Assembly: GCA_900314765.1 (NCBI GenBank)
Contig: OMWN01000075.1
Location: forward strand, 1-60,739
Reading direction: 5' to 3'
Source of the DNA: an uncultured Selenomonadales bacterium
GTDB taxonomy: Bacteria > Bacillota > Negativicutes > Selenomonadales > Selenomonadaceae
DNA length: 60,739 bases
In this document: piece after piece, positions 37,289 to 41,031 of the stretch
Layout of the letters: every line of letters begins with the position of its first letter
Numbering within the stretch: position 1 is the first letter of the stretch
Notes under the pieces: generated by a model
What the model was told of the DNA's origin: nothing
Databases searched by the model: none
Seen by the model: the letters and a program-made list of their open reading frames with translations, nothing else
Program-made: the position numbers and the translations under genes

Positions 37289-37477
37289 TTCATTCTACGA
37301 AAAATGTTCGTCATAATCAATGCGCCATCGCCGTTTTTTGTATTTCATGCCCCAAAAATGCATTTCATGCCACTTTTGCGCAGCGCTCGGCTGATTTGTG
37401 ATATGATGGCCATGCAAAGGAAAAGAAATGACTGACCGCATCAATACGCGAGTCATACAGAAAGAAAGGTGTTTTAT

Positions 37478-38733
37478 ATGAAAAAGTGGAGGTCACAAAA
37501 GAAAAATCGCCGTCTGGCGCTGCTCGTCGCGGGCACGCTCAGCCTGACGGCCGCGCTCACGTTCTGCCCCCCGTCGTGGACATGCGCGCTGCCGGTGTGG
37601 AAATCGGCAGCAGCATCGCCTATGCGGCGGATGTCACATACGAACTGGTGAAGGCTTCGGCGCTGAATAGCACGACATTCACTGCGGGTCAGAGCTACAA
37701 AGTGGTCAACGACGCTGGCAAGGAACTTGCTCGCTTCACGACGGTGGAGGTATATGGGCGGGCGAATGGGAAATATAGTGAGAATCCTATCGAAACAGAA
37801 CTCACCTATGACCCGTCCGCTGGGAAGATTACCTTAACCAAGGGGGCCGTCGAAAACTTGACAATTTCCGCGAACACGGAAGTAATGTATGATAAATCCT
37901 CCGGGGGATTCACCGCGGATGATAAAGAGCACGGTTATATAAATGCAAAAAGTGTCATTGGGAATGTCACGCTCGAAGGCGGCGGGGCAACGTATTCGAC
38001 AAACATCGGCAGTTCTGGCTATCATATTGTAGCTGCGACGGCGGAGGGCAGCACGGGAACCTTAACGTATCAAAAGGATGGGAGTCAAGTGGCGGTGTAC
38101 AAGTGTACGGGGGGCACGAAAATTTCCGCTATCGATTCTACGAATGCTTCCAGCTTCCAGCACATTTCCGGGACTTCGGACGGGGGTGTGATAGATATCA
38201 GCGGGATTGCTGGCGACGGGAATACGTATAAGCTGACAATTCAGGGCGGCACCACCGTCGATACGGGCCAAGCCAAGATCACGACCCCTGCGTATGGAAG
38301 GTGCGATCTTTCTCTTCAAAAGGATACGACCATCATGGGTGACGGAGCTTATGACGACATCAAGAAATCGGAAGTTGGAACAGGCACGCTGAAATTCAAG
38401 GATCAGGTAAGCATAACGGTAAACAACCTCGCGGCGGATACGCTCAATGTATTTGAAATCAAGGCTAATAACCTCACCGTGGGCACGCTCATTACAGGGT
38501 CTGAACATGGAGCTACCGTGGAGGACACCCTCACGGTGGAACATGCTGTCGACCAGCTTGGCGACCTCATAGCTGGCACCATCATAGGAGGAGGCGACAT
38601 CAAAACGACGGGGGGGGTATATCAATGTGACGAAGGGCGACCTCGTGGCGGGAAATGTCTACACGGTACAAACCCTCAATGTGAAGGGCGATGTCATCGC
38701 AACGGGCAACGTCTCTGCGACGCTTGGTATTAA
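37478..38733 (+). CDS. Autotransporter adhesin, N-terminal part (signal peptide and first passenger section; frame-broken)
   Basis: The true start is ATG 37478 (AGAAAGGTG upstream; MKKWRSQKKNRR, then a hydrophobic run), a long signal peptide. At a C6 run (37567-37572) the frame must change to give a sensible continuation, GSSIAYAADVTYEL, with likely cleavage near AYA-AD. That second frame runs to 38733, but from the G8 run at 38610 the coding continues in the frame of 38627-40576. With C7 and G7 the gene would be a single open frame of about 1030 codons. The passenger here is Gly/Thr/Ser-rich beta-helix-like sequence. Phase variation, pseudogene or sequencing error are all possible. Confidence 0.75.
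37567..37572 (+). repeat. C6 homopolymer at a frame change in the autotransporter gene
   Basis: The signal-peptide frame ends soon after this run (stop near 37651). The frame shifted by one encodes the mature N-terminus. Adding one C would join them. Confidence 0.6.
38610..38617 (+). repeat. G8 homopolymer at a frame change in the autotransporter gene
   Basis: Upstream coding (GGGDIKTTGG) and downstream coding (YINVTKGDLVAGN) are in different frames. Removing one G joins them exactly. Poly-G runs of this length are classic slipped-strand sites. Confidence 0.7.
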
Positions 38734-40576
38734 GGCAAACTCCATCAATGCAACGGGAAATGTCACTTCGAGCGCGAGAAATGTTGAAGTGACCGGCAAC
38801 CTCACGGCGAAGAATGTCGAGGCGGGCACCACCCTCACGGCGGCATCCATCAACGCATCGGGCAAGGTCTCTGCAAAAGAGAATATTACGGTGACAGGTA
38901 ACCTTAAGGCGAATGAGGTCGAGCTCGCAAAGACCGAGAATGGAGATGGAGTCATCAAAGCCGACTCCATCACAGCAACAGGCAATGTCTCTGCAAATAA
39001 TAATAAAATCAATGTAACAAACGACCTCACAGCGAAGGACGTCTCGGGGAAAGCCGTCACGGCGGACTCCATCAGCGCAACGGGCAACGTCACGGCGAGC
39101 AATGGCGATGTCAACGTGACGAACAACCTCACAGCGAAGGATGTCTCAGGCAAAAACGTCACGGCGAACAACATCACGGCGGACACGGTCACTGCGAGCG
39201 AGCGCGTCAGCGTGGCGGACACGCTTTCTGTCACAAAATCGCTGAATGCATCGGAAGCCACCGCCTCGACCGTCATCCTTTCCAAAGGCGCGACGGCGAC
39301 AGGCAATATCACGACGGATACGCTGCAAGTCGATCCGTCGACCGCAGCCACCGCACTCGCGAACACGACCGTGAAGGCAGCGACGGCCGGCAGCACGATC
39401 AATATCGCGGATGCGGACGGATTTGCCATCACGAACCAGAACCTCCTCGCGTCCATCGCGGCGGCGGCCGGCCTCCAGTCGGGCAGCTATATCTCCGTGA
39501 TCACGGATTTTGGAAAACAGAACATCCCGGGGATGATTGACAGGATTGGCACGTGGAATCCCTTTGAAGAAAAACTCTTTGACATCGCGAGCCTGGGAGA
39601 CCTCCCGGAAGCTGACATAGCGAAATGGAGAGCGCAGTTCGCGCAGGCGTACCGCGAGAGCGAGCCGGTGCACGACCTCGTCAACGCCACGGCGAATGCA
39701 GGCGCAGTGACGACGCAGGCCATCTCGGGCGCGTTCACGCTCGGCGCGGCGTCGCGCACGGCCGACCTGCGCGCGGGCGCCCCGGCCTCGGCTGTCATCG
39801 ACAATGGCGGCGCAGAGAGCGACACCAGCAGCCTCTGGGTCTCCATCAAGGGCGGCAAGACGACAGTCGACGGCGGCGACTACGCCGACACGCGCGTCCG
39901 CGTCACGACGTATCAGGCGGGCTATGACTTCAGGCTCAGCGATGCCGACTACCTCGGCGTCTATCTCGGCACCGCCACAGGCTACGCGCAGACCGATGGC
40001 CGCTACAGCAAGCGCATCGACATAAAGCACGCGTGGAACTATGGGCTCTACGGCACGCACGAGTTCGGCGGCGGCCGCTACCTCGACTACATGCTGCAGG
40101 GCGGCAAATTCGACAACAAAATCGAGGGCCACGACACGTGGGGCACGAAGAGCTTCGGCGGCGTCATCGGCTACGGCTGGAAATATCGCACGCAAAGCAA
40201 GCAGCACGAACTCACGTGGAACCCGTACGTCCGCTTCAAGTACGACCACATCAAGATGGACGACCGCACATTCGCGGGCAACAAGGTCACGACCGACGAC
40301 GAGAACGCCCTCTCCATGAAGCTCGGCCTGGACGTCTCCACCGACTTCGGCCTCTACGGCGGCATCGCCTACAGCCGCGGCCTCTCGGGCTCACTCTCAT
40401 CCTACGTCAACTCGTTCGCCATGCCCTCCTCCGACTTCGATGACAACGTCATCTATCTGAACCTCGGCTACAAAGGCTACGTGAACGAAAACACCATGTT
40501 CAACCTCAACTTTGAGAAAACATTCTGCGACTACGACGGCTGGACCGCCGAAGCCCGCGTCGACTTCCTGTTCTGA
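38627..40576 (+). CDS. Autotransporter adhesin, C-terminal part (repeat passenger and outer-membrane beta-barrel)
   Basis: 649 residues in the frame after the G8 run; the 38627 GTG is probably not a real start. About the first 250 residues are imperfect repeats of the kind TADSISATGNVTASNG-DVNVTNNLTAKDVSG, a beta-solenoid-like passenger. A linker with helix-forming sequence follows (NLLASIAAAAG to VHDLVNATANAG). The last 260 residues are a type V autotransporter beta-barrel (SLWVSIKGGKT, alternating aromatic strands, ending ARVDFLF with terminal Phe). This shows the cell has an outer membrane. Near-identical repeat units could recombine. It is continuous with 37478-38610 apart from the frame breaks. 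Confidence 0.9.
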   Translation: MTKGDLVAGNVYTVQTLNVKGDVIATGNVSATLGIKANSINATGNVTSSARNVEVTGNLTAKNVEAGTTLTAASINASGKVSAKENITVTGNLKANEVELAKTENGDGVIKADSITATGNVSANNNKINVTNDLTAKDVSGKAVTADSISATGNVTASNGDVNVTNNLTAKDVSGKNVTANNITADTVTASERVSVADTLSVTKSLNASEATASTVILSKGATATGNITTDTLQVDPSTAATALANTTVKAATAGSTINIADADGFAITNQNLLASIAAAAGLQSGSYISVITDFGKQNIPGMIDRIGTWNPFEEKLFDIASLGDLPEADIAKWRAQFAQAYRESEPVHDLVNATANAGAVTTQAISGAFTLGAASRTADLRAGAPASAVIDNGGAESDTSSLWVSIKGGKTTVDGGDYADTRVRVTTYQAGYDFRLSDADYLGVYLGTATGYAQTDGRYSKRIDIKHAWNYGLYGTHEFGGGRYLDYMLQGGKFDNKIEGHDTWGTKSFGGVIGYGWKYRTQSKQHELTWNPYVRFKYDHIKMDDRTFAGNKVTTDDENALSMKLGLDVSTDFGLYGGIAYSRGLSGSLSSYVNSFAMPSSDFDDNVIYLNLGYKGYVNENTMFNLNFEKTFCDYDGWTAEARVDFLF

Positions 40577-40599
40577 GGAAGAAATAGGATATGAATGAA

Positions 40600-40636
40600 A
40601 ATAGAGCTGTTGCGGCTTGCAACAGCTCTATTTTTG
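40600..40636 (+). terminator. Terminator of the autotransporter gene
   Basis: A perfect 14-bp stem, AATAGAGCTGTTGC / GCAACAGCTCTATT, with a 5-nt loop and a T-run. Confidence 0.92.
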
Positions 40637-40654
40637 TGTGAGGGGTAATAGACG

Positions 40655-40775
40655 ACCCTCTCCGCCTCGCATTCGCTCGCGTAAACATTCCACTGGCATG
40701 TTTACCCCCCCAAAGTGTGAGGCTGGCGTTACAGAGTCTGCGATTATTTACGCTAGCTAAAACGATTCATTAGCA
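40655..40775. repeat. Family 1 half element in front of copy 6
   Basis: A left half only: ACCCTCTCCGCCTCGCATTC, then a 25-nt hairpin variant (40681-40705, GTAAACATTCC/GGCATGTTTAC), then the GATTATTTAC middle. It ends where copy 6 begins. Confidence 0.75.
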
Positions 40776-40776
40776 G

Positions 40777-41031
40777 ACCCTCTCCGCCTCGCATTCGCTC
40801 GGCACCTCCCCCATTGGGGAGGCTACCTTTACGGAAGCTGTGATTATCTACATAAGCTAAAAAGATTCATTAGGCAAAACACAATTTCACAATCCAAGAG
40901 TAATAGAAAGCGTGTAGCTTGCTCCCGCGTAAAGCAAAAGACTATCGTTCACTTTCAATCATATCGTAAAGCACCGCTTTCGCTATGCCTCCCACTCTGG
41001 GGGAGGTGGCCCCGCAGGGGCCGGAGAGGGT
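40777..41031. repeat. Family 1 palindromic MITE-like element, copy 6
   Basis: 255 bp, directly oriented and closely similar to copy 5 (35800-36053); the outer 50-60 bp at each end are practically identical. Confidence 0.85.

Follow-up and report, generated by a model that had tools for sequence, protein, structure and literature searches.

The window, i.e., the whole stretch of 60,739 nucleotides analysed here, carries on its forward strand an autotransporter gene that extends from an ATG at position 37478 to a stop codon at 40574–40576 and falls into three pieces: a signal peptide, a first passenger part, and a second passenger part joined to the barrel. The initial annotation had placed these in frames 2, 1 and 2, and the open frames agree with this assignment. 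Both frame changes coincide with a homopolymer, a run of six C residues (C6, 37567–37572) and a run of eight G residues (G8, 38610–38617), respectively, which are present exactly as had been reported. Within 37478–40576, no further stop or frame change was found outside these two tracts, and the arithmetic of the proposal that C7 plus G7 would give one continuous autotransporter is consistent with the observed frame offsets.

A likely ribosome-binding site (GAAAGAAAGG), assigned by reading the sequence, is located at 37460–37469. The signal peptide (MKKWRSQKKNRRLALLVAGTLSLTAALTFC) is encoded in frame 2 at positions 37478–37566, and its frame reaches a stop at 37649, shortly past the C run. The first passenger part (37573–38609, about 346 codons) is read in frame 1, which stays open up to 38730; membership of a known domain family was rejected for this part, as it gave no Pfam or NCBIfam match. 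The second part (652 codons) shares the frame of the signal, which is open between 38588 and the stop codon at 40574–40576. According to this open frame and a structure model, it comprises a second passenger part, predicted to be beta-helix-like, with an alpha-helical linker (38618–39775), followed by the autotransporter beta-barrel and the stop codon (39830–40576). The strong hairpin right after the stop (40595–40637; folding energy of −26.7 kcal/mol, z of −6.1) is a likely terminator and is absent from the output of a simple terminator scan. At 40660–41030, intergenic repeats (GACCCTCTCCGCCTCGCATTCGCTCG and relatives) are situated between the autotransporter gene and ABC transporter genes.

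The proposed autotransporter identity holds, as one of the classical type, with the 3′ part matching PF03797 (E of 4.8e-17) and TIGR01414. An AlphaFold model based on nine aligned sequences displays beta-helix-type strands and a helix (349–386) before the C-terminal barrel, with a mean pLDDT of 76.6 and a pTM of 0.53, and the best PDB matches to the model of the 3′ part are the autotransporters EstA, EspP, NalP and AIDA-I. Of the hallmarks of type Va autotransporters, the C-terminal PF03797 barrel (a 12-strand family) is present and a beta-helix-like passenger with a helical linker is predicted, while the Sec signal peptide, as sequenced, is not in the reading frame of the first passenger part. 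From the gene parts, the PF03797 and TIGR01414 matches, the model with its PDB matches and the hairpin after the stop, we therefore conclude that 37478–40576 forms the transcription unit of a classical autotransporter whose only defect is in the reading frame. The putative surface autotransporter may function as an adhesin.

By the open frames alone, the first break could fall anywhere from the start region to approximately 37648, and the second anywhere from 38588 to 38730. The breaks were assigned to the two runs because homology and codon usage put them there: the conserved GVEIG block starts 21 bases after C6, and a six-frame codon HMM switches frame at 38616/38617. The short signal part was not scored as coding by the HMM and rests on its hydrophobic signal and on its similarity to the signals of relatives (L038, L040, L031 and L032). 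A separate signal peptide in the passenger frame was ruled out, since this frame has no upstream hydrophobic segment.

Across the whole window, the same HMM yielded 45 coding segments, with gene boundaries judged by eye, and the autotransporter gene contains the sole within-gene frame break unexplained by a neighbouring start or stop. Eight G or C runs of at least six bases occur in the window, two of them at the autotransporter breaks. Under a first-order model, about 0.27 runs of at least eight are expected in 60.7 kb. The window's own genome (2.33 Mb) has nine distinct G/C tracts of at least eight versus about ten expected, and a general excess of long G/C runs was therefore rejected. The unusual feature is the coincidence of tracts with frame changes, not the presence of tracts.

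The C run in related genomes

The lineage of the window is Selenomonadaceae-like, in line with the Negativicutes setting that had been proposed, and its named relatives are rumen MAGs of Selenomonas, Veillonellaceae and Selenomonadales. The 3′ half of the autotransporter has matches in 14 of 189 genomes of the same family. A sequence-only model of the signal-to-passenger junction, built from five genes, produced strong matches (E of about 1e-26 or better) in five of the 189 genomes, which were the five source genes with no additional copy. Weak matches to this model (E up to 0.01) were obtained in 29 further genomes, and none of the four loci examined among them showed a tract. A search of genome contigs with the 3′ part gave no confirmed relative, and a loose 26-base pattern matched 133 of the 189 family genomes, mostly by chance.

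Four relatives keep the signal region, all of them rumen MAGs: RUG072 (G182), RUG371 (G175), RUG12578 (G176) and SUG490 (G172). Together with the window copy, these five genes from three genera all possess a C run at the equivalent place (C6 in the window, RUG072 and RUG371, C8 in SUG490 and C9 in RUG12578), and in every case the frame of the signal differs from that of the GVEIG block behind it. The differences in C-run length are between species only. RUG371 and RUG12578 share an identical signal peptide with one silent change, yet carry C6 and C9, respectively. The retention of the C run could partly stem from conserved Ala-Pro-Pro codons, which would account for neither the differing lengths nor the frame offsets. 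An in-frame (ON) allele was seen in none of the five copies, an outcome with a probability of about 0.13 if a third were ON. With respect to the hypermutability cut-off for G/C tracts (at least 7), G8 lies above and C6 below, and the relatives reach C9. A counterpart of G8, which is not conserved, was not seen in the relatives, and the corresponding region of RUG072 is covered by a single frame. Two tracts in one gene had been claimed, and both do sit at breaks in the window copy; judged from these sequences, only the C run is a common feature of the relatives, G8 being specific to the window copy.

The frame changes might also be sequencing or assembly errors at homopolymers, the real gene being whole, as the initial annotation had cautioned. 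Homopolymers are error-prone, and all three coding G8 tracts of the window's genome are out of frame. However, independent assemblies show C runs of differing length in this gene, likewise out of frame, which makes such an error less likely. Moreover, Illumina data underlie the RUG assemblies of the 2019 study (PMC6785717), a C8 (L008) and two C7 tracts (L128 and L141) in coding sequence of the window's own genome stay in frame, and none of the A7 and A8 runs of the window coincides with a frame change. Taken together, we consider this explanation improbable.

Even less credit is given to programmed ribosomal frameshifting or transcriptional slippage on the C run, by which signal and passenger would be joined with the DNA unchanged. 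The length of the run is a multiple of three in four of the five copies (6, 6, 6 and 9), where the same shift would serve, but the C8 of SUG490 would need another shift and G8 would be left unexplained. In addition, the poly-G/C tracts of the relatives are spread over numerous genes unrelated to one another and are also placed between the hexamers of promoters, which fits slippage on DNA. This reading is therefore very improbable.

Further lesions in all relatives had been named as evidence that would speak against switching. Outside the tracts, they were found in three of the four relatives keeping the signal region: the passenger of RUG12578 has a TAG and a frame change at a repeat junction, RUG371 has one frame change away from the tracts, and RUG072 has two. 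RUG12578 has a further frame change at a G7. The SUG490 copy is open to the contig end without further lesion, and the window copy has none either. In G183 and G125, only the 3′ part is left and the signal is absent. Decay of the relatives' copies is plausible, and short-read assembly of repeats may contribute to their lesions. For the window copy, these observations raise the alternative of a pseudogene in decay, in which two ordinary slippage indels occurred at homopolymers, being the first sites of indels, and switching was lost. The 5′-truncated remnants and the lesions in relatives agree with this alternative, as do the two tracts being out of frame simultaneously and the dN/dS of 1.38 for the 5′ passenger of RUG371 versus RUG12578, a value from one pair that is compatible with either diversification or loss of constraint. 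In the same pair, one passenger stop was seen versus 3.0 expected under neutral substitution (P(≤1) of 0.18). A decaying gene is harder to reconcile with about 1000 codons that carry no other lesion, and with the 3′ half, whose pN/pS of 0.49 versus G183 and 0.41 versus G125 shows the signature of protein-level selection. Further arguments against it are the kept position and changing length of the C run and the tract-associated breaks of additional surface genes, both in the window's genome and elsewhere in the family. We thus regard a pseudogene as rather unlikely, although it is the most serious of the alternatives. In G183 and G182 (L030 and L040), the related autotransporter locus, of which G183 has the 3′ part only, adjoins a gene that we take to be radA, and the remnant in G183 presumably has a YgiT/MqsA antitoxin-like neighbour.

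Poly-G/C tracts in the window's genome and across the family

In the window's own genome, 29 G/C tracts of at least seven were examined with the HMM; one was at a frame change, five were in frame and 23 were neither, compared with 45 frame changes at 1300 control positions. The HMM alone missed two more breaks, which rest on homologues. The gene of an MBOAT acyltransferase (PF03062; L004:2901–4322, G000:C16) changes frame in its N-terminal part at a G8, and that of a GT8 glycosyltransferase (PF01501; L010:2189–3260, G000:C99) is split within a short region including a G8. The homologues compared, four of nine for MBOAT and four of seven for GT8, are all whole and without the tract. An intact MBOAT paralogue is located at G000:C90:47689–48969.

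In the same genome, a G9 is placed where the ribosome-binding site of an epimerase gene probably lies, and two flagellin genes have a G9 and a G11 upstream. Acyltransferase, glycosyltransferase, epimerase and flagellin-type genes are classes usually found under contingency control. The G11 upstream of a flagellin gene (L007:3077–3087) and a G9 elsewhere (L009:3082–3090) have common flanks, CATTTGTCTTGC-Gn-ACA, followed by TATAAT or TATGAT, and just upstream of the second flagellin gene (L005:2970–3025) a G9 lies inside an inverted repeat (TTTACCCC...GGGGTAAA). Only two poly-G instances of TTGTCTTGC-Gn-ACA exist in this genome, and its reading as a shared promoter-like element was rejected.

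Poly-G tracts of at least nine were counted in three genomes of the family, giving 88 in G069, 13 in SUG490 and 6 in RUG12578. G069 belongs to another genus (g11) and is 2.4 Mb in size and 100% complete (loci among L181–L209 and L211–L270). Among its 83 tracts examined, G12 was the commonest length. Coding sequence on the same strand flanks 59 of them on both sides, of which 31 are at a frame change and 28 in frame; a further 23 were classed as other and one as edge. By comparison, among 1597 control positions lying no closer than 250 bases to a tract, 67 showed a frame change and 1530 did not. A TTGA(C/T)-type hexamer at most 14 bases upstream accompanies 20 of the 83 tracts versus 162 of 7732 control positions, and several of these tracts also have a TATAAT-like hexamer after the tract. 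When the 20 hexamer-linked tracts are removed, 27 with and 24 without a frame change are left. Thirty of the 31 genes with a frame change were scanned, and 20 passed the Pfam cut-off: seven glycosyltransferases, three DUF4422, four methyltransferases, two WcbI, and one each of TupA, hexapeptide transferase, ATP-grasp and citrate lyase ligase. The G069 tract set looks like an undescribed large phasome.

In SUG490, three of the 12 tracts classified are at a frame change and two are in frame. In RUG12578, two of the six classified are at a frame change and one is in frame, the latter being the C9 of the autotransporter (L189), mis-scored because the HMM is blind to the short signal. RUG12578 also has a second autotransporter-like gene (L198/L271, G176:C182), in which a signal plus 94 codons is followed by a frame change exactly at a G9 and then by 949 open codons that reach the end of the contig. 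In SUG490 (L272, G172:C14), glycosyltransferase-like genes related to one another lie in a row, two of them with a G10 and a G9 at frame changes, and a gene of RUG12578 similar to these (L183) has a G12. The poly-G/C slipped-strand control originally proposed thus gains from tracts at frame changes in surface genes of the same family, but it has to accommodate a C6 below the usual cut-off. On balance, we lean towards the view that Selenomonadaceae of the rumen and gut possess a poly-G/C contingency system on the scale of the whole genome. In this view, one species can have as many as 88 tracts of at least nine, located both inside genes for surface glycans and adhesins and in the spacer from the −35 to the −10 hexamer, and the window autotransporter would be a doubly gated member requiring two tracts in frame.

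Predicted switching of the autotransporter and known systems

A simple repeat is present at the point of frame change, and the tract length differs between orthologues, both features of slipped-strand genes. On the basis of sequence comparison, slipped-strand phase variation appears to be the best-supported mechanism. The gene at 37478–40576 probably encodes a surface autotransporter and is probably subject to slipped-strand contingency control, the sequenced copy being OFF. Translation initiated at the ATG at 37478 would then cover the signal and end shortly past the C run, whereby no barrel would be made and nothing would reach the outer membrane. Replication slippage at the tracts would shift the frame in single cells. 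With both tracts in frame, the entire protein would be exported and displayed in some cells, while most cells would be without it. The C run would represent the older switch common to relatives, and G8 a second, lineage-specific switch. One slip alone would be insufficient with the two tracts both out of frame, and the OFF state would be a deep one. Frequent switching of the window copy is doubtful in view of this double OFF state and of C6, and the copy may be drifting towards a pseudogene. With these qualifications, we infer switching in the window strain, surface display and a role in adhesion.

Most known examples of surface genes controlled by slippage come from Gram-negative pathogens (Neisseria, Campylobacter and Helicobacter). 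If the large Negativicutes set is real, random surface switching would be a strategy of gut and rumen commensals too, with relevance to phage escape, to attachment to the host or to feed particles, and to strain typing. A further implication would be that automatic annotation and MAG pipelines lose genes of this type by treating them as fragments or pseudogenes.

The poly-G/C contingency autotransporter is a kind already known, and it is apparently undescribed in Negativicutes within the literature searched. Homopolymer phase variation in Selenomonas, Veillonella, Megasphaera or Negativicutes was not found in that literature, most subscription journals lying outside it; invertons have been reported in this group (PMC11892184). 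Criteria separating phase variation from pseudogenes and programmed frameshifts are set out in PMC3711429, and the tract-associated frame change in surface genes of several genera fits its phase-variation class.

NalP and MspA of Neisseria meningitidis are, like the window gene, autotransporters with a homopolymeric tract inside the coding sequence (PMC3723659), and the window barrel model matches the NalP translocator domain (1uyn). In contrast to the window gene, whose switching is deduced, switching of NalP and MspA is documented in isolates (PMC3723659); the window gene also has an unrelated passenger and two tracts, one of which is at the signal/passenger junction. In Campylobacter, poly-G/C contingency autotransporters include a C. 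fetus autotransporter domain protein with C 8–11 and a VacA-type protein with G 8–10 (PMC6321876). As with the window gene, the poly-G/C tract is found there in an autotransporter gene that belongs to a larger group of phase-variable genes for the cell surface, but Campylobacter belongs to a different phylum and its tracts of 8–11 vary between strains, whereas the window has C6 and G8 in one genome; the cut-off used by PhasomeIt is G/C tracts of at least 7 (PMC6321876). In Bifidobacterium pilins, the secretion signal and the remainder form two ORFs separated by a G tract, and slippage has been measured (PMC9187656). The sortase-pilus switch of the gut commensal B. breve resembles the window gene in this split of signal and remainder by a homopolymer, but it concerns a Gram-positive pilin with longer tracts (G11/G12), for which switching was measured by deep sequencing and in mice (PMC9187656).
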